From an uncultured Ruminococcus sp. (GTDB lineage Bacteria; Bacillota; Clostridia; Oscillospirales; Ruminococcaceae), in NCBI RefSeq assembly GCF_902762735.1, contig NZ_CACWPP010000016.1:1-39950 (forward strand): DNA of 39,950 bases, read 5' to 3'. The notes under the pieces are model-generated. The model did not search any database. It saw nothing but the letters and a program-made list of their open reading frames with translations, and was not told where the DNA came from. Made by a program: the position numbers and the translations under genes. The first letter of the stretch is position 1, and every line of letters starts with the position of its first letter. Shown in pieces: positions 98-39,950 of this stretch.

Positions 98-199
98 GGT
101 TATCTTTCCCCCGCCTGCGGCGGGGGAAAGATAACATCAACTCAGTTTTTTCCTCATTGATAAAGGTATTTTGCAGTGGTGTGTTAAAGGGATAACCAT
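98..199 (-). mobile_element. Family A MITE-like element, half copy
   Basis: The GC hairpin at 99-135 (arms GTTATCTTTCCCCCGC and its complement) is followed by sequence that matches the reverse complement of the left half of the copy at 11461-11623, ending in GGGATAACCAT at 199. The other half is not recognisable: unrelated hairpin DNA lies at 56-84 instead. Only one terminus is present, so no target duplication can be checked. Confidence 0.7.
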
Positions 200-360
200 A
201 ATATGTTTTTTTGTTATATTTGATAACGTTTTCATTATAAACTATTTTCAACCTCTTGTCAAGCAGAATTCTATCTAATTCGACCAAAAAAGCTGGTAAC
301 TTTTAAATAAATGTGATAAAATTAAACAGTTCGCTCTGAAAGATGGTTTTTTGCGGCATC

Positions 361-4960: not shown

Positions 4961-4974
4961 ATATATCCGATATT

Positions 4975-5098
4975 ATGACTGTCCCTTTAGCACACCAACT
5001 AAAAATGCGGTAAACAAAAGGATAATTGAGCACCATATGCCAAGAACATTAAGCTCTGTATAGCCGCTGTTTTTGTGGTGTGTCAGAGGGATAACCAC
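4975..5098 (+). mobile_element. Family A MITE-like element, short form, with perfect 10-bp target duplication
   Basis: The element starts ATGACTGTCCCTTTAGCAC and ends GTGTGTCAGAGGGATAACCAC, and it is 124 bp long. It is flanked by identical ATCCGATATT at 4965-4974 and 5099-5108, which fixes the ends exactly. It lacks the central GC hairpin of the ~160-bp copies. It carries no ORF. It lies just after the terminator of one operon, and its right duplication touches the stop codon of the convergent phosphatase gene. Confidence 0.9.
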
Positions 5099-5107
5099 AT
5101 CCGATAT

Positions 5108-5572
5108 TTACACGTTTTCAGTCTTTGTCAGGGCATCGTATATCTTGTTGAACACGAGCTGGTTCGGCATGTAGCGGTAGTCGGCAAATACACGTATGCC
5201 GTCCCCGAAGAAGAATTCACGCACTGCCGCCGCACAGCCTGCGCTCCTGCTGACACCGTATTCGCACTGGCAGATGATGTCCCTGCCCGCTTTCATATTT
5301 TCGCGTATGAACTTCGCCGCCTCTTCCGCTTCGGGAAAGAAATCATCAAAGCAGCCGCGCTCATCAAGGGTCTCCTTGTCGATGTCCTCAATATCCACCC
5401 TAAAGACGTGCCCGCATGCACCGTCGTAATTGACAGGGAAAAGCCCTGTCAGACGGCTCTCCTCAGGGTCTGAAAAGCTGATGACTGCCGCGTTTTCGGG
5501 GAAACGCTCCTCGTATATCAGCAGTTCGGCATCATCGCGTGACATTATCCTTACTCTGTTTTCCGTATCCAT
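5108..5572 (-). CDS. Small protein-tyrosine/dual-specificity phosphatase-like protein
   Basis: The 154-residue product contains C103-EYGVS-R109 followed by SAG, the Cx5R(S/T) loop of cysteine-based phosphatases; the Cys would be the nucleophile and the Arg would bind phosphate. The usual His before the Cys is replaced by Gln102. A candidate general-acid Asp lies in the DDFF segment (residues 76-79), but this is uncertain. The frame is open further upstream (to 5704), but AAAGGGCG seven nt before the ATG at 5572 supports this start. It overlaps the remnant of a nitroreductase gene at its 5' end and may rely on that gene's promoter. The substrate is unknown. No membrane segment is seen. Confidence 0.65.
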   Translation of the reverse strand: MDTENRVRIMSRDDAELLIYEERFPENAAVISFSDPEESRLTGLFPVNYDGACGHVFRVDIEDIDKETLDERGCFDDFFPEAEEAAKFIRENMKAGRDIICQCEYGVSRSAGCAAAVREFFFGDGIRVFADYRYMPNQLVFNKIYDALTKTENV

Positions 5573-5811
5573 TGAACCACGCCCTTTCATTAAAGTCAGC
5601 CTTTTGCGGTGCTTTCGGAAGTTCTGCCGCTGCACCGACAGGCAGCAGGCATACCGCATCAAGTTCGTTAGGTATACCCGGTTTGTCACAGATGCGGTCA
5701 TCATCTGTTATGTGACCCTCATACCGGCAGGAGGCATAGCACGGTGCATGTATCGCCAAAAGCATGTTTTCGATAGCTGTGCCGCGTAAAAATGCTTTCT
5801 ACCGTGTCCAT
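5532..5811 (-). pseudogene. Nitroreductase-family remnant with internal deletion and frameshift
   Basis: From ATG 5811 the reading begins MDTVESIFTRHSYRK, typical of the N-terminus of nitroreductase-family flavoproteins. The sense then continues in another frame (46 nt offset) with GTAIENMLLAIHA, and ends with a recognisable C-terminal part containing LDAVCLLPVG and ERAWFNGYGK. The ~100 central residues, including most FMN contacts, are gone. A ribosome site (GGTGATG) and a -10-like TATAAT (plus-strand 5829-5834) remain in front of the start. The two ends joined in different frames indicate a deletion rather than a short functional protein. The promoter may still serve the downstream phosphatase gene. 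Confidence 0.65.
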
Positions 5812-6063
5812 AACATCACCACACTCAAATTATAGCATATTTTCGGCTAATTACGGCAGAACGGTGTGCAGAAATTACAATTTCTGCCTTTTGCATAAAA
5901 ATAAATGCTGATTTTTGTGCAGATGGCATTATAACATACTAAAGCGATATGCTTTAAAATATCGCTTTATCGCTGTAAAACGCCTTTGGGTTAAAACGGT
6001 GCAGATGTCTGAAAATTCGGGTAAAAAATACAGGGTACAGCAGGTGTGAGGGGGTCGGTCCTA

Positions 6064-6092
6064 TTGACGGAAAAAGGATTTTGTGGTAAAAT
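6064..6092 (+). promoter_or_regulatory. Sigma-A promoter of ddh
   Basis: TTGACG (6064-6069), 17-bp spacer, TAAAAT (6087-6092). The start codon is 42 nt downstream. The stretch 5835-6063 holds no gene that I can support. Confidence 0.75.
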
Positions 6093-6134
6093 AACAGAGT
6101 AAAGTTCTTTTTTATTAGAAAGGAAATGATCAAT

Positions 6135-7124
6135 ATGTCAAACATTCGTATAGGTATTGTTGGCTACGGCAATCTCGGCAGAGGCGTTGAGCTTGCTATC
6201 AGACAGAACCCCGATACCGAGCTTGCTGCGGTATTCACCAGAAGAGATCCTTCTTCGCTGAAGATACTCACCGAAGGTGTGGGCGTTTACTCTGTAAATG
6301 ATGTGGCTGATTTCAAGGATAAGATCGACGTTCTGATACTCTGCGGCGGCAGCGCTACCGACCTGCCTGTGCAGACACCTCAGTTTGCAAAGCTGTTCAA
6401 CGTTATCGACAGCTTCGATACTCACGCAAGGATCCCCGAGCATTTCGCAAATGTTGATGCTGCTGCCAAAGAGGGCGGAAATGTCAGCGTTATCTCTGTG
6501 GGCTGGGATCCGGGCATGTTCTCTGTACAGAGACTGTACGGCAGCTGCATACTGCCCGATGGCAAGGATTACACATTCTGGGGCAAGGGCGTATCTCAGG
6601 GTCATTCAGACGCTATCAGAAGAGTTGAGGGCGTTGCTGACGGCAAGCAGTACACTGTTCCCGTTCAGGCGGCTATGGACGCTGTAAGAAACGGCGAAGA
6701 CCCCGACCTGACCACCAGACAGAAGCATACAAGAGAGTGCTTTGTTGTTGCGGAAGAGGGCGCTGACAAGGCTAAGATAGAGGAAACTATCAAGAACATG
6801 CCAAACTACTTCTCCGACTATGACACCACTGTAAACTTCATCTCGCAGGAAGAGCTGAACGAGAAGCACAGCGGTATCCCTCACGGCGGCTTCGTATTCA
6901 GAAGCGGCAAGACAGGTGTTAACGGCGAGACCCGCCACATCATCGAGTACAGCCTGAAGCTGGGTTCAAACCCCGAGTTCACTTCCAGCATACTGGTAGC
7001 ATACGCAAGGGCAGCTGTAAGACTTCAGAAAGAGGGCGCAGCAGGCTGCAAGACCGTATTCGACATCGCACCTGCATACCTCTCGCCTAAGAGCAGCGAA
7101 GAGCTGAGAGCTTCCATGCTTTGA
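6135..7124 (+). CDS. ddh: meso-Diaminopimelate D-dehydrogenase
   Basis: Reductively aminates tetrahydrodipicolinate to meso-diaminopimelate with NADPH (EC 1.4.1.16), the one-step branch of lysine and peptidoglycan precursor synthesis in the cytoplasm. The 329-residue length fits the family. The N-terminal Rossmann motif GYGNLG is at residues 10-15. Family-typical segments include the SFDTHARIPEHF region and SVGWDPGMFS, which line the active site. ATG 6135 lies about 10 nt after GAAAGGA; the in-frame ATG at 6126 is only 2 nt from it and is less likely. Own promoter at 6064 and own terminator at 7148, so it is monocistronic. Codon use is that of a well-expressed gene. Confidence 0.95.
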   Translation: MSNIRIGIVGYGNLGRGVELAIRQNPDTELAAVFTRRDPSSLKILTEGVGVYSVNDVADFKDKIDVLILCGGSATDLPVQTPQFAKLFNVIDSFDTHARIPEHFANVDAAAKEGGNVSVISVGWDPGMFSVQRLYGSCILPDGKDYTFWGKGVSQGHSDAIRRVEGVADGKQYTVPVQAAMDAVRNGEDPDLTTRQKHTRECFVVAEEGADKAKIEETIKNMPNYFSDYDTTVNFISQEELNEKHSGIPHGGFVFRSGKTGVNGETRHIIEYSLKLGSNPEFTSSILVAYARAAVRLQKEGAAGCKTVFDIAPAYLSPKSSEELRASML

Positions 7125-7147
7125 TCTTTGTATCGGATATAAGAACG

Positions 7148-7174
7148 GGTGGGGGCTTGCTCTCACCTTTTTTG
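7148..7174 (+). terminator. Terminator of ddh
   Basis: GGTGGGGG pairs with CTCTCACC (two G-U pairs) and is followed by TTTTTTG. Confidence 0.65.
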
Positions 7175-7178
7175 TAAT

Positions 7179-7279
7179 AGTCTCAATTTGGTTGTGTATT
7201 GTTCCCCCGCCTAAGGCGGGGAACAATACGAAAGAACAGCCATTTTGTATCATCAGCAATACACATCAAAATTGGGAGT
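7179..7279 (+). mobile_element. Family B MITE-like element
   Basis: About 101 bp. Ends AGTCTCAATTTGGTTGTG and, inverted, ACTCCCAATTTTGATGTG. Inside is a hairpin with arms GTATTGTTCCCC and GGGGAACAATAC. The flanks read TGTAAT (7173-7178) and TGTAAA (7280-7285), a nearly preserved target duplication. A second copy, nearly identical, is at 39549-39650. No coding capacity. Confidence 0.8.
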
Positions 7280-7286
7280 TGTAAAA

Positions 7287-7325
7287 TAAAAGTGCGTCTG
7301 CGGAAATTGCCGCAGGCGCACTTTT
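7287..7325 (-). terminator. Bidirectional terminator at the end of the two-component operon
   Basis: AAAAGTGCGTCTGCGG pairs with CCGCAGGCGCACTTTT around AAATTG, with one mismatch in the stem. A-run on the left and T-run on the right, so it works for the leftward operon and for read-through from ddh and the MITE. Confidence 0.85.
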
Positions 7326-7359
7326 TCGTATCACTTGTCAGCCCGTCAGCCTGACCGCA

Positions 7360-7989
7360 TCACGAATCGCTGATGGTTATGCCGATGACGCGGGCTTTTA
7401 TGGCAAGCTCGGTCCGGCTTCGGAAACCCGTCTTGTCAAGCATGGAGCGTACATGGGATTTCACCGTGTTTTCGGATATGCCCAGCTGTTCAGCCACCTG
7501 CTGGTTAGTCGCACCTGTGGTGACTATGCGCAGTATCTCCAGCTCACGCTCTGTGAATTCCGAACTGTCAGCCAGTCCCAGCTTTACGGTCGGACTGCTT
7601 CGCGGGTAAACGTGGTCGCCCGCCATCGTCCTGTCCATGACTTCCAGTATGGTCTGTTCGTCTGCTTCCTTGTACCAGAAACTCTCTATGCCGATGGACT
7701 TCGCCTTTTCCAGCCACGAATATTCGGGCATCGAGGTCACGGCGATGATCTTTATCTCGGGTCTGAGGGATTTTATCTTTTCAGCTGCCTCAAGCCCGTT
7801 TGAACCGTCATTCATAAGAATATCCATCAGTATCAGGTCTACCTGATGCCGCAGTATATAAACGTCAGCCGCCTGCGCCGAACTAAGCGAGAAAGCCAGT
7901 TCGTATTTAGGCGAATTGTTAACGTACATCTCAAACAAGTGCCTTGAAATGGACTGGTCGTCCACTATCATCACCCTATATTTTTCCAT
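7360..7989 (-). CDS. LuxR/NarL-family response regulator
   Basis: The 209-residue product has a receiver domain (1-120) with the acidic pair D10-D11, phospho-acceptor D56 in LILMD, T85 and K107, followed by a LuxR-type helix-turn-helix (about 145-205; FTERELEILRIVTTGATNQQ is the start of the signature). Phosphorylation by a histidine kinase would drive dimerisation and DNA binding. It starts 4 nt after the stop of the kinase gene and is the last gene of a three-gene leftward operon. Its targets are not evident; no transporter or other obvious output lies next to it. Own terminator at 7287-7325. Confidence 0.92.
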   Translation of the reverse strand: MEKYRVMIVDDQSISRHLFEMYVNNSPKYELAFSLSSAQAADVYILRHQVDLILMDILMNDGSNGLEAAEKIKSLRPEIKIIAVTSMPEYSWLEKAKSIGIESFWYKEADEQTILEVMDRTMAGDHVYPRSSPTVKLGLADSSEFTERELEILRIVTTGATNQQVAEQLGISENTVKSHVRSMLDKTGFRSRTELAIKARVIGITISDS

Positions 7990-7993
7990 TATT

Positions 7994-9268
7994 TTACTCC
8001 TTCCTGTCCACCTTTATCGTCAGCCTGAACTGCGGAACTGCCGCCAGTTCCATCTCGCCCCGCACCTGCTCGACCGCTGTGCGCAGGCTTTTCAGACCGC
8101 CTTTTTCGCTTATATCGCCCTCAGGCGGTTTGCCGTCATTGGTGAACACTGCGGTCATCACGCCGTTCTCATCGGTCAGGTCAACGGTCAGTTCACTGCC
8201 GTCTGCATGTTTGACAGTATTTGTCAGACACTCATGTATCGCTATGACCAGCACCTTGCGCATGTCATCGGGTATCTCACCGTTCAGCCTCAGCCTGACA
8301 CCCACTGCTTCTGCGGCTTCTTTCAGCGCCCCGATGGGGTCTGCGCTCTCATCGGGGTCGTTCTCGCCCTTTAGTATGCCCGCTGTGAACTGCCAGAGCT
8401 TCATCAGCTCTGCCCTGTCACCGCCGCGTATCAGGTAGCTTTTCAGCGCCAGCAAAGCCCTGCCCACATCATCATGTATGCGTATCTTTGCCGCAAGGAC
8501 TTCCTCTTCGCGTATCAGCGCGTTCATCTCGTTGTTGTAGTCCCTCAGCCTGAGGTTCACCTCTTTGAGATGTTTGTTGCGCTCTTCCAGTTCAAGGCTT
8601 TTCCGATACCGCTCTGTGACATCATAGGCGATAAGCTCCCACACCTTTACTCCGCTCACGTTCAGCAGGCGCTTGCGTATCTCGCGCACGCTGCCGTCAT
8701 TGAGGTGCAGATAGTACCTTTTGCCGCGTACCTCAGCAAAGCATCCTTCTCTGAGCTTGTTTTTTTGCAGGCTGAGTTCCAGCAGATGGCTGTCAAACAG
8801 CGGTATGCCCATCGCTTCCGTGCTGATGTGATGCATGGTGCTGTTTACGAACAGCGGCACGCCCTGCGGTGTGGTGAAAGCTATCCCGTCGGGCAGACTG
8901 TTCAGCCCGTCCTCCAGCGACTGCGGTGTGAGCTTGTTGGTAATATCACTTGCCTGACTGAGCCACAACACTGCCCACAGCACGGTCATAATGCAGATGA
9001 CCGCAAGGCACAGCACGGCGTTAAGCCCCTCAGCATATTTTTCAAAGACCGATGGCATGCGTTCGCCGATGACGACGCGGCATACCTCATTGATGCTCAG
9101 CATCAGCCCCATGCATATGACCAGCGCAGGCACGCAGATAAAGTATATCCGCCTGCTCTGCCCCGCGATATGCTGCCTTATTATCAGTGCCAAAAACATC
9201 ACATTCAGCAGGAAAGCCCCTATACCCAGCGATGAGAGCGATGATGCCGACAGATTTCCCAGCGTCAT
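7994..9268 (-). CDS. Membrane histidine kinase with PAS domain (HisKA_3/NarX type)
   Basis: The 424-residue product has three hydrophobic segments (about 14-31, 41-60 and 82-104), a PAS-like domain (about 112-220), a coiled coil (222-260), a phosphoacceptor helix with H265 in RIHDDVGRALLALK, and a C-terminal HATPase with N350 in HECLTNTVKHA and a GG before the LKSLR segment. This is the partner expected for a LuxR-type regulator. Its ATG overlaps the stop of the upstream gene (ATGA at 9265-9268), so the two membrane proteins are translationally coupled. The D-box DGK in NDGKPP is present, so it is likely active. The signal sensed is unknown. Confidence 0.85.
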   Translation of the reverse strand: MTLGNLSASSLSSLGIGAFLLNVMFLALIIRQHIAGQSRRIYFICVPALVICMGLMLSINEVCRVVIGERMPSVFEKYAEGLNAVLCLAVICIMTVLWAVLWLSQASDITNKLTPQSLEDGLNSLPDGIAFTTPQGVPLFVNSTMHHISTEAMGIPLFDSHLLELSLQKNKLREGCFAEVRGKRYYLHLNDGSVREIRKRLLNVSGVKVWELIAYDVTERYRKSLELEERNKHLKEVNLRLRDYNNEMNALIREEEVLAAKIRIHDDVGRALLALKSYLIRGGDRAELMKLWQFTAGILKGENDPDESADPIGALKEAAEAVGVRLRLNGEIPDDMRKVLVIAIHECLTNTVKHADGSELTVDLTDENGVMTAVFTNDGKPPEGDISEKGGLKSLRTAVEQVRGEMELAAVPQFRLTIKVDRKE

Positions 9269-10920
9269 ATCGCATCGCCCCCCTTCACAGAAAATGTGAT
9301 GAAGCAGCTCCCGTCAGCGGCTTCGGTATCTATCCTTCCGCCTGCCAGTGCCGCTCTTTCCTCAAAGTCGGCAAGCACGGGGAGCTTCTCATTGTCAAGC
9401 TCTATCCTGTAAACAATGCTGTCATCTAAATTCAGCGTGACCATTACAGCGTTCAGCTCAGGCAGGGCATTTTCGACTGCCGCCTGAAAAAGCTCATACA
9501 TTAAAAGTACCGTGTCGGAGGGCAGTTTAGTGCCGCGCGGTATCTCAGCGTTGCCGTAGATGCCCGATAATTCCATATATCCCAGCGATTCGCCCACCGA
9601 GAGCGCCAGTTCGCCGCTGTCTATACAGCTGTCACCGCCCGCCAGCAGAAGCAGATTTGAACAGCGCTTTATGAACACGCCGTCGATCGCCGCCCGCTTC
9701 ATGCCTGTGCGGAAACCTTCTTCATCTTCGGGGAGCTGTCCGAGCATTTCCGAAAGCCTGTCAAATTCGGGTTTCAGCCGTCTGGAGATGCTGTCATACA
9801 GCTTGTTCTGTTCAGCCGTGCGCCGTCTGCCTTCTTCGAGATGCTGTGCTTCATCGAGCATGGCGTTTTCTTCTTCGAGATAGCTTCGTGTCTCTTCCAG
9901 CCGCGAATTTAGCTGCTGAAGCTCCCGTATATCTTCCGTCCAGTAAAAATACCCGCCCGTCACCTGCTGTACTTTCAGCAGTATGCCGTCTTTTATGACT
10001 TCTCTTTCAGCTGCTTCCGCAAGCTGTTCCTTATCGGGAGGGGTACTGTTCTCACTGTGCAGCTCCACATTCATATCGGTGTCCGTCAGCCCCGCGCTTA
10101 TTGAAGATGCCCTGAAAAACTCACCGTGACCGTCATTTGAGGGGAGCATGTGCGTCATTACCAGACTTTCCCAGAAGCACACGAAGAAAAGGCATGTCAG
10201 GTCGGGAAACTCGTACATGCGCTGGAAAAGCAGAGGTTCGCCCGAGTTGGTGTATGAGATTATGTACAGTCCTCCCAGTGCAGATACGCCGGCGGGAAGC
10301 AGAAAACTCCTCCTGAACTGACGGCTGGTGCAGCTGCGCAGTGTCTTGAACAGTATGCCTGCCACGCATAGGAAAAGTATGCCCATCGCGCAGTAGTACA
10401 GCGGTCCGTATGAGTAGCTGTCAAGTGCATTGGGGACACCGTGCCTGAATTTGAATGCGAGCTGATGCCTGTCATTGGTGACTATCCCCGCCGTCACCGC
10501 CGCCGCAGGTATGAAAGCCGCTGTCGATGCGGGCGGCAGTTCATAGCTGTCAGTCCTGCCGATGTAGAATGATGACATCAGAAGAAGTGTGGGCAGCATC
10601 ACCACTGGGAAATAATACCAGTACCATATCAGCCTGCTGAGGTCTGAATCGACAGATACGAATTCATAGCGTATTGTCTTGACGATGCACCACAGCATCA
10701 TCAGCAGCGCCGAGAACGTCAGCAGGCGGCGCATGCCCTTCTGCGGGAAACGCCGCCGCGAGGCAAAGAGCCATATCAGATATACCGTCAGCAGCGGCAG
10801 TGCCAGCAGACAGTGATAGCTGAAATCAGTTCTGTCAAGAATGAGTTTGAACGCCCCCGAAAACAGCACGGCTGCTGCCCCGAAGATCATCTCTCTGCGA
10901 TGCTTGCGGTCGATAGGCAT
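9265..10920 (-). CDS. 7TM-domain histidine-kinase-like protein with degenerate ATPase end
   Basis: The 551-residue product has about seven N-terminal hydrophobic segments (roughly residues 12-255, resembling the 7TM N-terminal module of clostridial kinases), a linker with a PAS-like YFYWTEDIREL segment, a long charged coiled coil (about 330-400), and a C-terminal region of ~150 residues in the place of a HATPase. In that part I cannot find a convincing phosphoacceptor His, and the N- and G-boxes are weak (VLLMYELFQAAVENALPE is the nearest N-box-like stretch). It may be an inactive sensor subunit that passes signals to the kinase encoded next. ATG 10920 is chosen because AAAGGAG lies 10 nt upstream; the frame stays open to 10968, but that end runs into a mobile element. 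Confidence 0.65.
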   Translation of the reverse strand: MPIDRKHRREMIFGAAAVLFSGAFKLILDRTDFSYHCLLALPLLTVYLIWLFASRRRFPQKGMRRLLTFSALLMMLWCIVKTIRYEFVSVDSDLSRLIWYWYYFPVVMLPTLLLMSSFYIGRTDSYELPPASTAAFIPAAAVTAGIVTNDRHQLAFKFRHGVPNALDSYSYGPLYYCAMGILFLCVAGILFKTLRSCTSRQFRRSFLLPAGVSALGGLYIISYTNSGEPLLFQRMYEFPDLTCLFFVCFWESLVMTHMLPSNDGHGEFFRASSISAGLTDTDMNVELHSENSTPPDKEQLAEAAEREVIKDGILLKVQQVTGGYFYWTEDIRELQQLNSRLEETRSYLEEENAMLDEAQHLEEGRRRTAEQNKLYDSISRRLKPEFDRLSEMLGQLPEDEEGFRTGMKRAAIDGVFIKRCSNLLLLAGGDSCIDSGELALSVGESLGYMELSGIYGNAEIPRGTKLPSDTVLLMYELFQAAVENALPELNAVMVTLNLDDSIVYRIELDNEKLPVLADFEERAALAGGRIDTEAADGSCFITFSVKGGDAI

Positions 10921-10955
10921 ATCAGGTACGCTCCTTTCATCGAACATATTGATGC

Positions 10956-11112
10956 GCAGCCACCCCACTGATACAGCACAAAAACAGCGGTTTTACAGAA
11001 TCTGAGGTGGTTGGCGCATATCTTCCCTCACAGCAGTCGCGGGAAGATATGGTGCGCTCGGTCATTCTTTTGTTTACTGCATTTTCAGACGGTGTATCAA
11101 AGGGATAGTCAT
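10956..11112 (-). mobile_element. Family A MITE-like element in the leader of the two-component operon
   Basis: On the minus strand it starts ATGACTATCCCTTTGATACACC and matches the copy at 11292-11450 along its length, with a decayed far end (GGGGTGGCTGC instead of GGGATAACCAC). It is 157 bp. The flanking decamers ACATTGATAT (11113-11122) and ATATTGATGC (10946-10955) agree at 7 of 10 bases, all differences being transitions, so it is an older insertion. It lies between the promoter at 11121-11149 and the first gene, filling almost the whole leader. Confidence 0.8.
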
Positions 11113-11120
11113 ACATTGAT

Positions 11121-11149
11121 ATTATAACATGTATTACGCATTTTTTCAA
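11121..11149 (-). promoter_or_regulatory. Sigma-A promoter of the two-component operon
   Basis: On the minus strand TTGAAA (11149-11144), a 17-bp spacer, and TATAAT (11126-11121). The target duplication of the neighbouring MITE overlaps the end of the -10 hexamer by two bases. Confidence 0.75.
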
Positions 11150-11158
11150 GTGTCAGCC

Positions 11159-11202
11159 GCAGCAGGGCACTGTTTTTGCTGCAGCAGGGCACTGTTTTTG
11201 CA
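11159..11202 (+). repeat. Two tandem copies of a 22-bp unit
   Basis: GCAGCAGGGCACTGTTTTTG plus two bases occurs at 11159-11180 and 11181-11202, differing only in the last base. It lies just upstream of the -35 of the leftward two-component operon. No gene is seen in 11203-11281. Confidence 0.8.
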
Positions 11203-11291
11203 GGATCACAACAGATGTGAGACAGATCAAGAAAAAAGACAGCGGAGCGTCTTGTGCCTGTTTTACAATGTTTGTCCGATAAATTATTTAT

Positions 11292-11450
11292 ATGACTATC
11301 CCTTTAGCACACCAGCTAAAAATGCGGTGAACAAAAGGATAATTGAGCGCCCCATATCTTTCCCCAGCCTGCGGCGGGGGAAAGATATACGCCAAAAACC
11401 CTAAGTTCTGTATAGCCGCTGTTTTTGCGGTGTGTCAGCGGGATAACCAC
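11292..11450 (+). mobile_element. Family A MITE-like element, full form (left member of tandem pair)
   Basis: 159 bp, from ATGACTATCCCTTTAGCACACC to GGTGTGTCAGCGGGATAACCAC, with a central hairpin (CATATCTTTCCCC... and ...GGGGGAAAGATAT). Flanked by AATTATTTAT at 11282-11291 and 11451-11460. No ORF. Confidence 0.9.
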
Positions 11451-11460
11451 AATTATTTAT

Positions 11461-11623
11461 ATGAATATCCCTTTAGCACACCACTGCAAAATACCTTTAT
11501 TAATTAGGAAAAACTGAGTTGATGTTATCTTTCCCCCGCAGCAGGCGGGGGAAAGATAACCGCCAACTGTATTCAAATCCCGATATAACATTGTTTATTT
11601 TGGTGTGTCAGCGGGATAACCAC
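11461..11623 (+). mobile_element. Family A MITE-like element, full form (right member of tandem pair)
   Basis: 163 bp, from ATGAATATCCCTTTAGCACACC to GGTGTGTCAGCGGGATAACCAC, with a central perfect hairpin GTTATCTTTCCCCCGC / GCGGGGGAAAGATAAC. Flanked by AATTATTTAT at 11451-11460 and 11624-11633, so it shares one duplication copy with its left neighbour. Its interior differs from the left neighbour, so it is not a simple tandem duplication. Confidence 0.9.
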
Positions 11624-11763
11624 AATTATTTATGTCTGCTATCGTAATGTGGCGGGTGCGTTTTCATTTATTTTCAATGATTTAATCTATCCACATAAAT
11701 TTAAATCACTGCACTTTGCACGAAAAATTTACGGAATTTTTGAAAAAAAGCGCCTGCACCCCC

Positions 11764-11792
11764 TTGTCAAAAATGCGGATATATGTTACAAT
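11764..11792 (+). promoter_or_regulatory. Sigma-A promoter of cellobiose phosphorylase
   Basis: TTGTCA (11764-11769), 17-bp spacer, TACAAT (11787-11792). The predicted start (about 11799) gives a leader of about 190 nt that contains a palindromic operator-like site and a family A element. Positions 11634-11763 hold nothing I recognise. Confidence 0.7.
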
Positions 11793-11804
11793 GAGACTAG
11801 CGTT

Positions 11805-11814
11805 TATCGCGATA
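11805..11814 (+). promoter_or_regulatory. Operator-like palindrome downstream of the promoter
   Basis: TATCGCGATA is a perfect 10-bp palindrome centred on CG, as LacI-family operators are, and lies about 6-16 nt after the predicted transcription start. A repressor bound here would block transcription. No LacI-family repressor gene with a DNA-binding domain is in the window. Confidence 0.35.
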
Positions 11815-11829
11815 CGGATAATATGAAAC

Positions 11830-11955
11830 ATGGTCATCTCTTTAGCACACCTGTTATCACCTTCGTATGACAGCGGACATTTGCTGTGTTATAACGGCTG
11901 TTTCCGCTGTTTGACGAAACACTGTACAAGTGTGGTGTGTCAGCGGTATGACCAC
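11830..11955 (+). mobile_element. Family A MITE-like element, short form, in the leader of cellobiose phosphorylase
   Basis: 126 bp, from ATGGTCATCTCTTTAGCACACC to GGTGTGTCAGCGGTATGACCAC. The flanks AATATGAAAC (11820-11829) and AATATGAAAT (11956-11965) match at 9 of 10 bases. The central GC hairpin is absent and the interior differs from the 4975 copy. It sits between the promoter (11764-11792) and the ribosome site of the gene (about 11974-11979). Confidence 0.85.
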
Positions 11956-11989
11956 AATATGAAATTCAAAATCAAAGGAGAGAAAGACT

Positions 11990-14404
11990 ATGCAGTATGG
12001 TTATTTTGACCTGAAAAACAAGGAATATGTCATCACTCGCCCCGATACCCCCGCACCCTGGGCAAACTATCTCGGTTCGCCTGAGTACGGCGCTATCGTT
12101 TCAAACAACGGCGGCGGATACAGCTTCGTAAAGAGCGGTGCAAACGGCAGAATTGCAAGGTATCGCTTCAATTCAAACATCGGTCTGCCGGGCAGATATG
12201 TTTACATCAGAGATAACGATGCAAAGGATTACTGGTCTGCAACATGGCAGCCTGTAGGCAAGAGCCTTGATGAGTACAAGACCGAGTGCCATCACGGTAC
12301 TGCTTACACCACCATCAACTCTGAGTACAAGGGCATCAAGTCTGCACTGACTTACTATGTGCCCCTCAACAAGACTTATGAGGTGTGGAGAATAAAGATC
12401 ACCAATGACTCCGACAAGGCGAGAAACCTGTCAACTTGGGGCTTTATCGAGTTCACAAACGAGAACAACTATGAGCAGGATCAGGTAAACTTACAGTACA
12501 CACTGTTCATCACACGCACCTCTTTTGAGGGCAACAAGATAGTTCAGCACATAAACGAGAACAGCGGCAAGGACGAGAACGGTTCTAACCACAAGGAGAG
12601 ATTTTTCGGTCTGGTGGGCGCTGATGTTTCGGCTTACAACGGCAACCTTGACAGCTTTATAGGCGCTTACAGAGATTACGGCAACCCCATTGCTGTTGAG
12701 AGCGGCAAGTGCGACAATGTACTGAACTACAACTCCAATGCATGCGGCGCTTTGCAGTCCGACTTCACACTGGCGGCAGGCGAAACTAAGGAACTTATCT
12801 ACATTCTCGGTCAGAAAGACCCCATCACTGCCGAGAACATCATGGCTGAGTACAAGGCTGAGGGCAAGGTAGATGCTGAGGTCAAGGAACTTGTTGACTA
12901 CTGGCATGGTCAGCTGAACAACTTCCAGGTAGAAACACCTTCCGAAGAGTTCAACAACATGGTCGATGTATGGAACGCTTACCAGTGCTTCATCACATTC
13001 ATCTGGTCGAGAGCGGCTTCGTTCATTTACTGCGGTCTGAGAAACGGCTACGGTTACAGAGATACTGTTCAGGATATACAGGGTATCATACACATCAACC
13101 CCGAACTGGCGGCTGAAAAGATACGCTTCATGCTGTCTGCGCAGGTATCTAACGGCGGCGGTCTGCCACTCGTTAAGTTCGACCACAGAGCAGGTCACGA
13201 GACCTGCCCCGATGAGAACGACGAAAACAGCGTATATGCTAAGGAAACAGGTCATCCCTCTTACAGAGCGGACGATGCACTGTGGCTGTTCCCGACAATA
13301 GTTAAGTATATCGGTGAAACAGGCAACAAGGCATTCCTTGATGAAGTCATCGTTTATGCAGAAGAGGGCGGCGGAGAGGCTACCGTTTACGAGCATCTGA
13401 AGAATGCTATACGCTTCTCGCAGGAAAGACTGGGCGCACACAAGATGCCCGCAGGTCTGCACGCTGACTGGAACGACTGCCTGAGAATGGGCAAGAAGGG
13501 CGAGTCCACTTTCGTTGCTTTCCAGCTGTACTATGCGATGAGCGTTATGAAGGGCTATGCAGAAGAGCGCAAGGACGCTGAGTATGTCAGGTACATCACT
13601 GAGGCTCAGGCTGAACTGGGCAAGGCACTGGCTGACTGCTGGGACGAGGACAGATTTATCAGAGGTATACGCGACAACGGCGAGGTAGTCGGCGCGAAGG
13701 CTGACCCTGAGGCTTCGATGTGGCTGAACCCTCAGTCATGGTCTGTAATTTCGGGCTTTGCAAGCAAGGAGCAGGCTGAAAAGGCTCTGGAGAGCGTTCA
13801 CGAGATACTGAACACACCTTACGGCGTAAAGATAATGGAACCGCCTTATGTAGACCACTACTTTGACGGTGCGCTGATGCACATATTCAACCCCGACACT
13901 AAGGAGAACGGCGGTATATTCAGCCAGACACAGGGCTGGATAATACTGGCAGAATCACTGATGGGTCACGGCAACAGGGCGTTTGAGTACTTCCTTGAAA
14001 GTGCGCCTGCAAGCATGAACGACAAGGCTGAGCAGAGAGTGATGGAGCCATACGTACACGGTCAGTTCACCGAGAGCACACGTTCGCCTTATGCGGGCAG
14101 GAGCCATGTTCACTGGCTGACAGGCACAGGTTCGACCGTGATGGTGGGCTGTGTTGAGGGTATCTGCGGCATGAGGCCAAACGCTGAGGGTCTGGTGATA
14201 AGCCCGTCCATTCCTGCTGAGTGGGACGGCTTTAAGATCGAGAAGAACTTCCGCGGCAAGCACCTGTCCATCGACATACAGAACCCCGACCACGTACAGA
14301 GCGGTATCAAGTCGATAACCGTTAACGGCGAGGCAGTTGAGGGCGACTTCGTATGCGAGTGCAAGATGACCGAGCAGACCAATATCACTGTTGTGATGGG
14401 CTGA
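11990..14404 (+). CDS. cbp: Cellobiose phosphorylase (GH94)
   Basis: Splits cellobiose with phosphate into glucose 1-phosphate and glucose (EC 2.4.1.20) in the cytoplasm, saving ATP during growth on cellulose breakdown products. The 804-residue length and overall sequence fit GH94 cellobiose phosphorylases (usually ~800-820). The N-terminal beta-sandwich (about 1-280) is followed by an (alpha/alpha)6 barrel. Visible family signatures are NGYGYRDTVQD, the D493-WND segment carrying the general acid, and a SHVHWLTGTGS segment near the phosphate site. Start ATG 11990 follows AAAGGAGA by about 9 nt. It is monocistronic, with its own promoter and terminator. Cellodextrin or related beta-glucoside phosphorylases are the alternatives, but length and motifs favour cellobiose. 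Confidence 0.9.
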   Translation: MQYGYFDLKNKEYVITRPDTPAPWANYLGSPEYGAIVSNNGGGYSFVKSGANGRIARYRFNSNIGLPGRYVYIRDNDAKDYWSATWQPVGKSLDEYKTECHHGTAYTTINSEYKGIKSALTYYVPLNKTYEVWRIKITNDSDKARNLSTWGFIEFTNENNYEQDQVNLQYTLFITRTSFEGNKIVQHINENSGKDENGSNHKERFFGLVGADVSAYNGNLDSFIGAYRDYGNPIAVESGKCDNVLNYNSNACGALQSDFTLAAGETKELIYILGQKDPITAENIMAEYKAEGKVDAEVKELVDYWHGQLNNFQVETPSEEFNNMVDVWNAYQCFITFIWSRAASFIYCGLRNGYGYRDTVQDIQGIIHINPELAAEKIRFMLSAQVSNGGGLPLVKFDHRAGHETCPDENDENSVYAKETGHPSYRADDALWLFPTIVKYIGETGNKAFLDEVIVYAEEGGGEATVYEHLKNAIRFSQERLGAHKMPAGLHADWNDCLRMGKKGESTFVAFQLYYAMSVMKGYAEERKDAEYVRYITEAQAELGKALADCWDEDRFIRGIRDNGEVVGAKADPEASMWLNPQSWSVISGFASKEQAEKALESVHEILNTPYGVKIMEPPYVDHYFDGALMHIFNPDTKENGGIFSQTQGWIILAESLMGHGNRAFEYFLESAPASMNDKAEQRVMEPYVHGQFTESTRSPYAGRSHVHWLTGTGSTVMVGCVEGICGMRPNAEGLVISPSIPAEWDGFKIEKNFRGKHLSIDIQNPDHVQSGIKSITVNGEAVEGDFVCECKMTEQTNITVVMG

Positions 14405-32510: not shown

Positions 32511-34871
32511 ATGTCTGATGTAACAACCATCACACCCGAGCTGTTGGACAAAATGAACAGATATTGGGACGCTGTGAACTATCTTTCCGCAGGTCAGCTC
32601 TATCTGCTCGATAACCCGCTGCTCAGAGAACCGCTCAAAAAAGAGCATATCAAAAAGAAGATCGTAGGTCACTGGGGCACTGTTCCAGGTCAGAACTTCA
32701 TCTACGTTCACCTCAACCGCGTTATCAAGAAGTATGATCTTGATATGATCTACATCTCAGGTCCCGGTCACGGAGGAAACTTCATGGTCGCGAATACTTA
32801 TGTTGAAGGCTCTTATTCAGAGGTATACCCAAACATTTCAAGAGATGTTGAGGGCATGAGGAAGCTGTTCAAGCAGTTCTCTTTCCCGGGCGGAATATCT
32901 TCCCACGTTGCACCCGAAACTCCGGGCTCTATCAACGAGGGCGGTGAACTTGGTTATTCTCTGGCACACAGCTTCGGTTCGGTTTTTGATAACCCCGATC
33001 TTATAACTGCCTGCGTTGTGGGCGATGGTGAGGCTGAAACAGGTCCGCTGGCTACTGCTTGGCATTCAAACAAGTTCCTGAACCCTGTTACCGATGGTGC
33101 GGTTCTGCCCATTCTTCACCTGAACGGCTACAAGATCTCCAACCCCACTGTTTTCTCAAGAATTACCCATGAAGAGCTGGAGTGCTTTTTCAGAGGATGC
33201 GGCTGGAAGCCCTATTTTGTTGAGGGCAGCGACCCGATGGAGATGCACAGGAAGATGGCTGAAACTCTTGACACTGTTATTGAAGAGATCAAGACTATCC
33301 AGAAAGATGCAAGAGTCGGCGGCAAGACCGAAAGACCCATCTGGCCGATGATCGTATTCCGTTCACCAAAGGGCTGGACAGGTCCTAAGTGGGTAGACGG
33401 CAACGAGATCGAGGGCACTTTCAGAGCGCATCAGGTGCCGATGGATATGTCACAGCCCGAGCATATGGCTCAGCTGGAGGAGTGGCTGAAAAGCTATCAC
33501 CCCGAGAAGCTGTTTGATGAGAGCGGCAGACTTATCCCCGAACTGGAAGAGCTTGCTCCCACAGGCATCAGAAGAATGGGTGCTAACCCACATGCAAACG
33601 GCGGTCTGCTGCTGAGAGATCTCAGACTTCCCGATTTCCGCGATTACGGCATCGAAGTCCCCGCGCCGGGTGCTACCGAAGCGCAGGATATGATCGAACT
33701 GGGCGGCTTTGTAAGAGATATTTTCAAGCTGAACGCAGAGAGCAGGAACTTCCGTATTTTCGGACCTGATGAAACCATGTCGAACAGACTGGGCAAGGTA
33801 TTTGAAGCTACCAAGCGCGACTGGAACGCTGAAATGAAGGACAACGACGAGTTTCTTGCGACTGACGGCCGTGTAATGGACAGCTATCTTTCCGAGCATA
33901 TGTGTGAGGGCTGGCTGGAGGGCTACCTGCTGACAGGCCGTCACGGTTTCTTTGCAAGCTATGAGGCTTTCATCAGAATAGTTGATTCGATGTTCTCGCA
34001 GCACGCAAAGTGGCTGAAAGTCACAAGTGAACTCCCCTGGAGGCAGAAGATAGCATCGCTGAACTACATTCTTTCCTCAAACGTATGGCAGCAGGATCAC
34101 AACGGCTTCACCCATCAGGATCCGGGTTTCCTCGACCACGTTGCCAACAAGAAGGCAGATGTGGTAAGAATGTATCTGCCGCCCGACACCAACTGTCTGC
34201 TGAGCGTTTTCGATCACTGCATACGTTCCAAGAATTACGTGAACGTTATGGTCACTTCCAAGCACCCGCGTCAGCAGTGGCTGACTATGGAGCAGGCTGT
34301 AAAGCACTGCACACAGGGTATCGGCATCTGGGAGTGGGCTTCCAACGATCAGGGTCAGGAACCTGATGTGGTACTGGCATGCTGCGGCGACACCCCGACA
34401 CTCGAAGCGCTGGCGGCTGTCACCATAATGCGCAAGAACATGCCGAATGTAAAGATAAGATTTATCAACGTTGTTGACCTGTTCAAGCTCCAGCCCAAGA
34501 GCAAGCACCCTCACGGACTGTCTGATGCTGAGTTCGATGCGCTGTTCACTAAGGACAAGCCGATAATCTTTGCATTCCACGGTTATCCCACACTTATCCA
34601 CGAACTGCTCTACCACAGAAACAACCGCAATCTGTACGTTTGCGGCTACAACGAGGAAGGCACTATCACCACGCCGTTCGACATGCGTGTACAGAACGAG
34701 ATAGACCGTTTCCACCTTGTTATGGAGATGCTGAAGCGTCTGCCGCAGCTGGGCAACACAGGTTCTTACCTGTACCAGATGATGCAGGACAAGCTGGTCG
34801 AGCACAAGCAGTACATTCACGAGGTCGGTCTTGATCTGCCCGAAGTACGCAACTGGAAATGGGACGTTTGA
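32511..34871 (+). CDS. xfp: Xylulose-5-phosphate/fructose-6-phosphate phosphoketolase
   Basis: A 786-residue thiamine-diphosphate enzyme that splits xylulose 5-phosphate (and often fructose 6-phosphate) with phosphate to acetyl phosphate plus glyceraldehyde 3-phosphate or erythrose 4-phosphate (EC 4.1.2.9 / 4.1.2.22). The length and the whole sequence fit the family. Visible signatures are the ISGPGHGG segment, [18 protein letters not shown], the ThDP/Mg motif [19 protein letters not shown], and the C-terminal FHGYP segment. It stands alone with its own promoter; the ribosome site is CGGAGGG. It is convergent with parC, with repeated terminators between. In a fibrolytic anaerobe it would route pentoses, and perhaps hexoses, to acetate and ATP. 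Confidence 0.95.
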
Positions 34872-34925
34872 TAATTCATAATTCACAATTCATAATTCAT
34901 AATTATTGACATGTGATATAGTATA

Positions 34926-34962
34926 CTGCCCCTGCGGGATCATTCTGCGGGGGCAGGTTTTT
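34926..34962 (+). terminator. Terminator hairpin in repeat unit 1 (xfp terminator)
   Basis: CTGCCCCTGC (34926-34935) pairs with GCGGGGGCAG (34947-34956) with one G-U pair, followed by GTTTTT. Confidence 0.85.
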
Positions 34963-35015
34963 AATTCATAATTCATAATTCACAATTCATAATTATTGAC
35001 ATGTGATATAGTATA

Positions 35016-35052
35016 CTGCCCTTGCGGGATCTTTCTGCGGGGGCAGGTTTTT
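35016..35052 (+). terminator. Terminator hairpin in repeat unit 2
   Basis: Same stem as in unit 1, with CTGCCCTTGC as left arm and the loop changed by one base, followed by GTTTTT. Confidence 0.8.
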
Positions 35053-35105
35053 AATTCATAATTCACAATTCATAATTCATAATTATTGACATGTGATATA
35101 GTTTG

Positions 35106-35142
35106 CTGCCCCTGCGGGATCTTTCTGCGGGGGCAGTTTTTT
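35106..35142 (+). terminator. Terminator hairpin in repeat unit 3
   Basis: Same stem as in unit 1, followed by TTTTTT. Confidence 0.8.
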
Positions 35143-35210
35143 AATTCATAATTCATAATTCACAATTCATAATTATTGACATGCGGCGTGTATACTGCGC
35201 TGACCAAAAT

Positions 35211-39523: not shown

Positions 39524-39548
39524 TTCATAACCTCACATTATTAAATGA

Positions 39549-39650
39549 AATCCCAATTTGGTTGTGTATTGTTCCCCCGCCGAAGGCGGGGGAACAATAC
39601 GAAAGAACAACCATTTCGTATAATCAGCAATACACATCAAAATTGGGAGT
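39549..39650 (-). mobile_element. Family B MITE-like element in the parE leader
   Basis: About 102 bp, from AATCCCAATTTGGTTGTG to CACATCAAAATTGGGAGT, with a perfect central hairpin (GTATTGTTCCCCCGCC / GGCGGGGGAACAATAC). Flanked by AAATGA at 39543-39548 and 39651-39656; the match can be read as 8 bp (AAATGAAA) if the first two bases belong to the target. It differs from the 7179 copy at only a few bases. It lies between the parE promoter and its start codon; the strand is given as that of parE, because the element is nearly palindromic. Confidence 0.85.
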
Positions 39651-39697
39651 AAATGAAAACTATTGTTCGTATTTGGTATAATTCAGCATACTTGGTT

Positions 39698-39727: not shown

Positions 39728-39850
39728 GCCCCTTGTCAAAAAATTTACCTTTTTACAGCAAAAGAGCGTCATTTTCTGTACTTAAAGTGAGCGGCATCGT
39801 GTAAAATGCCGCAATATCCATGATCTTCCATAAGCCATTTAAATAGAAAT

Positions 39851-39950
39851 ATGATTATCCCGCTGATACACCAAAATAAACGATGTTATATCGGGAACCA
39901 AATACAGTTGGCGGTTATCTTTCCCCCGCCTGCGGCGGGGGAAAGATAAC
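39851..39950 (-). mobile_element. Family A MITE-like element cut by the window end
   Basis: It starts ATGATTATCCCGCTGATACACC and matches the reverse complement of the right half of the copy at 11461-11623, running into the hairpin GTTATCTTTCCCCCGCC... at the last base. The flanking decamer on the left is AAATAGAAAT; the matching copy would be about 60 bp beyond the window. Confidence 0.85.

Follow-up and report, generated by a model that had tools for sequence, protein, structure and literature searches.

What are the small repeats scattered along contig NZ_CACWPP010000016.1 of an uncultured Ruminococcus sp., what moves them, and how much of their target is copied when they insert? The contig (39,950 bp, analysed whole and hereafter called the window; contig C16 of a draft assembly of 242 contigs and 4.06 Mb, the source genome) holds seven related copies of one family, termed family A, of which five are complete (124-163 bp) and two incomplete. 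A preliminary description, made from the letters of the window, had counted the same seven copies and had proposed a small non-autonomous transposable family without open reading frames, repeatedly active, with 10-bp target duplications and a transposase encoded outside the window. The analysis reported here upholds this picture in all but one part, the length of the duplication, which the tip letters and an empty site correct to 8 bp. It led us to predict that family A very probably consists of miniature inverted-repeat transposable elements (MITEs) for which an IS1595-family insertion sequence (IS) of about 1.02 kb, belonging to the Ruminococcus albus group, supplies the transposase in trans, because MITEs and IS have similar terminal sequences of about 24 bp, the same 8-bp duplication and the same preference for an octamer with A before and T after it (A-N8-T).

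The family is far larger than the window suggests. A search with the ends, which the preliminary description had recommended, returned 365 left ends with at most two mismatches in the source genome and none for a reversed-pattern control, so that family A is not a product of chance. With at most one mismatch the left end was present in 14 of 61 genomes examined: in the genus 13 of 29 had it (source genome counted), outside the genus but within the family none of 8, and in the remaining families of the order 1 of 24, with a single match. The richest relatives were R. albus 8 (165) and R. albus 7 (88). Among the matches listed for the exact end in named stretches, a set in which the source genome is possibly not represented, there were at least 49, of which 48 bore the label Ruminococcus, 38 of these being R. 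albus 8, and one the label uncultured Clostridiales. These end-rich relatives, together with 99% identity to R. albus 8 over positions 11956-12560, suggest that the source genome belongs to the R. albus group.

Target site and probable partner insertion sequence

For scoring, 96 distinct complete copies from the source genome were used (100 minus 4 duplicates in opposite orientation), drawn from loci with good left ends or close matches and hence biased to younger copies; left-end contexts seen numbered 172, and those left unscored lacked a recognised right end within 420 bp, lay too close to a locus end or were a second view of a copy already scored. Element length ranged from 96 to 303 bp, with peaks at 124 and 159, and the longest stop-free run had a median of 47 and a maximum of 85 amino acids. 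The flanking octamers were identical in 55 of the 96 copies and differed by one base in 13 more; the resulting 68 pairs with at most one mismatch compare with a mean of 1.6 and a maximum of 6 when the octamers were re-paired at random (200 runs). A lack of flanking repeats at most other copies, which had been named as grounds for rejecting the preliminary description, was thus not found in this sample. All five complete window copies show the layout A, octamer, tip, element, tip, octamer, T; the octamers match at 8 of 8 positions in four of them and at 6 of 8 in the copy at 10956-11112, which is probably older since its octamers have decayed.

The copied target can be read directly at one locus. 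The MITE at 11830-11955 has no counterpart at the orthologous R. albus 8 site, whose flanks are colinear with the window (94% and 99% identity) and whose two flanking alignments overlap by 9 bases at the junction. There the sequence reads GGAT-A-ATATGAAA-T-TCAAA, with a single octamer, whereas the occupied site in the window reads A-ATATGAAA-C-element-A-ATATGAAA-T; the octamer was therefore duplicated, and the C and A are part of the element. The one mismatch in the decamer pair formerly read here as 9 of 10 is this tip C.

A full IS with the same ends, for which the preliminary description had advised a search, was found in R. albus 7, but with 8-bp rather than 10-bp duplications. In this genome the end occurs as inverted pairs about 1.01 kb apart that enclose a 291-amino-acid transposase, and 25 full-length transposase frames are free of stops. 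The transposase matches PF12762 (1e-21), PF12760 (1.4e-10) and NF033547 (1.3e-47), all over the cut-off, and combines a DDE_Tnp_IS1595 domain with an N-terminal zinc ribbon, which places it in the IS1595 family; the plasmid record NC_014824 (match at 306429-307489) likewise carries the annotation IS1595 family transposase. Perfect octamers, of the length usual for the IS1595 family, flank 14 of 16 IS copies examined, and among these 14 the outer left base is A in 13 and the outer right base is T in 13. The IS end agrees with the MITE ends at 20 of 23 positions on the left and 19 of 23 on the right, and blastn of MITE against IS detected no similarity beyond the terminal 24 bp or so. Family A has the following properties of MITEs: its members are short, lack a transposase gene, carry terminal inverted repeats that resemble the ends of an autonomous IS and share its duplication length. 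PF01609 (DDE_Tnp_1), with three matches in the source genome, was also considered and was set aside, the full IS with matching ends having another domain.

Six pieces of the likely partner transposase were found in the source genome, five of them at contig ends (Table 1), as expected of a repeated IS that defeats assembly, and an intact copy, with ends like ATGGTTATCCC, presumably exists in the source strain. At one locus (L124, C64:7700-8600) the broken piece lies beside sequence of a second small repeat family, described below, and a family A end.

Several observations weigh against so simple an account. Residues 1-122 of the transposase were not found in the source assembly, which contains no intact copy; 2 of the 16 IS copies lack matching octamers; and 24 of the 96 MITE copies have three or more octamer mismatches in the fixed register. 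Direct repeats of 12-19 bp at four of the 96 (L012, L014, L023, L154) are not explained by a plain 8-bp cut. Further candidate empty sites were not counted: at L011, L017 and L047 the intervals differ from R. albus 8 beyond the element, and the R. albus 8 locus L203 gave no clean empty site against the source genome.

Central hairpin and gene leaders

By their interiors, 92 of the 96 copies form one loose cluster and 3 a second, and the copy at 11830-11955 stands alone. The two length peaks differ by a central hairpin, about 35 bp in the main type. RNA was folded both from single sequences and from an alignment: the 159-bp consensus alone folds end to end as a long imperfect palindrome (-72.9 kcal/mol), but from the 54 aligned copies that bear the hairpin only this central structure and a small hairpin close to the right end emerge. 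Changes on both sides of a pair occupy 26 cells of this alignment, over 17 consensus pairs, and the central hairpin accounts for 24 of these cells. In 200 shuffles, which take no account of relatedness, such cells numbered 8.5 on average and never more than 16; covariation of the hairpin arms is only suggestive. The hairpin comes or goes after insertion, since one and the same insertion, nested in a larger R. albus 8 repeat (ends TATAGCGATCC; L186 976-1099 and L187 5661-5818), occurs once with and once without it.

Copies of family A mostly lie outside long open frames: 9 of 57 copies with long flanks overlapped a stop-free frame of 150 codons or more by at least 60 bp, compared with 885 of 1006 segments drawn at random from the same loci. 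Two window copies lie where leaders would be expected. The MITE at 11830-11955 has a promoter-like site (11764-11792) on one side and, on the other, the start codon (11990) of a GH94 gene, which we take to encode cellobiose phosphorylase; the MITE at 10956-11112 is situated between a promoter-like site (11149-11121, minus strand) and a histidine-kinase-like gene with seven transmembrane segments (7TM). Their positions, that of the first in the leader region preceding a GH94 gene in what appears to be an R. albus-group bacterium, might suggest that these two copies, although mobile in origin, now serve their host as regulatory RNA hairpins, and the covarying arms would fit such a role. We consider this improbable: the cases are only two, the covariation could stem from palindrome correction at replication and was judged against a control that ignores relatedness, and the region holds 2 promoter-like sites against a mean of 3.4 in shuffles. 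Since such sites are no commoner than in shuffles, a leader role for family A is a guess.

Duplication length and stacked insertions

The decamer identities given in the preliminary description are exact as read by letters, and the question is what their outer letters represent. True 10-bp duplications, made by a transposase not identified, would agree with the identical decamers found at a fixed register in 32 of 100 copies (counted before the 4 duplicates were dropped), but copying of 10 bp would couple the tip letters to the outer letters, and the two proved separable. In the decamer frame of these 100 copies the element-side letter is A on the right in 95 and T on the left in 98, while the outer letter is A in 80 and T in 78. 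Of the 55 copies with perfect octamers, 13 have a left outer base other than A, and every one of these has A as its right tip; 11 have a right outer base other than T, and 10 of these carry T as left tip. The same test on 49 named loci among the matches listed gave 35 perfect octamers in 57 complete copies; of the 35, two (L186 and L187) represent a single insertion copied together with the larger repeat around it. Of the right tips, 28 are A and 7 are G, and both groups have A or T as outer left base; the left tip is T in 35 of 35, with A as outer right base in 6. Moreover, the left tip of the IS is C in 10 of its 14 copies with perfect octamers, so that 8 bp is read there directly, as at the empty site; ten identical bases independent of the tips were not found. 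True 10-bp duplications are accordingly very unlikely. The outer letters of each decamer are one element tip base and one preferred target base: the tips are mostly T on the left (C in two window copies) and mostly A on the right, the target preference is A before the octamer and T after it, and the apparent 10-bp repeat arises because the two coincide. A duplication length taken from one window may therefore be two bases off where the tips of an element happen to agree with its target preference.

That family A might instead be a structural repeat that the host maintains at scattered sites, such as a terminator, a REP-like (repetitive extragenic palindromic) sequence or an RNA processing site, is hardly credible, for although the main-type consensus folds end to end, the central hairpin shows changes on both sides and 48 of 57 copies have no such overlap with a long open frame, the exact duplications, the R. 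albus 8 empty site and the IS-like ends indicate mobility, an Rfam scan of the window gave no match, the consensus of the alignment lacks the end-to-end fold, and gene avoidance is expected also for the survivors of random insertion.

The coincidence of tips and target has a consequence for the MITEs themselves. In most copies insertion leaves each octamer once more between an A and a T, the usual tips supplying the inner letters, and this regeneration of the A-N8-T site explains stacked copies such as those at 11282-11633. An exact scan of the source genome for two elements separated by 1-30 bases gave a spacer of exactly 10, that is, an octamer plus two tips, at 5 of 8 junctions; this is the unbiased figure, since the 9 of 14 obtained over the fetched loci, the exact-scan loci among them, was counted in part on loci fetched for that pattern. 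Seven other genomes yielded 2 junctions, in two of them, with spacers of 5 and 8. Among the nine junctions with spacer 10, all three octamers are readable in four (window 11282-11633, L013, L034, L143) and are identical in each; of the other five, with two readable octamers, two match, one has a single mismatch and two differ. The stacked window elements (11292-11450 and 11461-11623) are of different subtypes, with 74% identity, and separate insertions are therefore more likely than a tandem duplication.

On the sequence comparisons above, we propose that the IS1595-family transposase would cut and join the ends of family A in trans and that insertion would copy an 8-bp target, preferably with A before and T after it. 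The usual tips T..A would then restore the A...T flanks and leave, in most cases, two fresh A-N8-T sites, a second element might insert into the same octamer to give a stacked pair, and the central hairpin of about 35 bp could be gained or lost afterwards. A wider proposal, that tips imitate the target flanks so that insertion doubles perfect sites and seeds stacked arrays, while a separable palindromic hairpin module is kept symmetric and used in 5' leaders of the host, seems to us doubtful as a whole. For the draft assembly, the repeats at which some contigs stop can now be assigned to a family, with a target rule and a probable partner transposase.

Table 1. Family A copies and their octamers in the window, and pieces of the likely partner transposase elsewhere in the source genome
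Feature	Position	Strand	Details
Incomplete family A copy	98..200	-	IS-like end GGGATAACCATA at 189-200; stops at hairpin 98-135
Family A MITE	4974..5099	+	124 bp (4975-5098) plus tips T..A
Octamer TCCGATAT	4966-4973 and 5100-5107		A outside left, T outside right
Family A MITE	10955..11113	-	157 bp (10956-11112) plus tips C..A
Octamers TATTGATG; CATTGATA	10947-10954; 11114-11121		6/8 match
Family A MITE	11291..11451	+	159 bp (11292-11450) plus tips T..A
Octamer ATTATTTA	11283-11290 and 11452-11459		
Central hairpin of MITE 11292-11450	about 11354-11388		
Family A MITE, other subtype	11460..11624	+	163 bp (11461-11623) plus tips T..A; stacked on MITE 11292-11450
Octamer ATTATTTA	11452-11459 and 11625-11632		11452-11459 common to MITE 11292-11450
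MITE with family A ends	11829..11956	+	126 bp (11830-11955) plus tips C..A
Octamer ATATGAAA	11821-11828 and 11957-11964		
Family A copy, truncated	39850..39950	-	truncated at its hairpin by contig end
Transposase piece	C167, contig end		C-terminal 124 residues
Transposase pieces	C33, C130, C159, all contig ends		last 20 residues
Transposase inner piece	end of C4		
Transposase broken piece	within C64		

The window contains two further kinds of repeat. The second family of small repeats has ends like CCCAATTT...AAATTGGGA and occurs at 7150-7283 and 39548-39654 and also in loci L002, L028 and L031; its GC-rich hairpin TATTGTTCCCCCGCC is similar to that of family A. At 34861-35183 a 143-nt stretch recurs three times at 90-bp spacing, which amounts to a 90-bp tandem repeat whose copies are 92-94% identical to the first.

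Relation to known systems

Close to family A stands the IS1595-family IS of R. albus 7 (NC_014824), which has similar terminal sequences of 24 bp or so, the same 8-bp duplication, the same A-N8-T target and the same host group, and which differs in its size of about 1.02 kb, its 291-amino-acid transposase and its unrelated interior. In the open literature on Ruminococcus combined with MITE, IS1595 or insertion sequence, which mostly leaves out subscription journals, titles and the opening parts of abstracts pointed to no report on such elements. The Correia or NEMIS elements of Neisseria are, like family A, small, palindromic, present in high copy number and located near genes, but have other ends and another target.

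An 8-bp duplication is described as usual in the IS1595 family in PMC8101967. A MITE of the IS1595-family element ISHwa6 in the archaeon Haloquadratum walsbyi is listed with 165 bp, an inverted repeat of 25 and a direct repeat of 8 (PMC3852290, Table 4), and the MITEs treated in that paper are said generally to have only their borders in common with their IS. By this description, rather than by sequence, it resembles family A in size, in its 25-bp ends and in its 8-bp duplication, but the table gives it 7 copies in an archaeal host, whereas family A has several hundred ends. MITEs of the IS1595 family are thus already known and family A is a new, abundant example, notable for its copy number, the regeneration of its target site and its central hairpin, whose arms suggest covariation.

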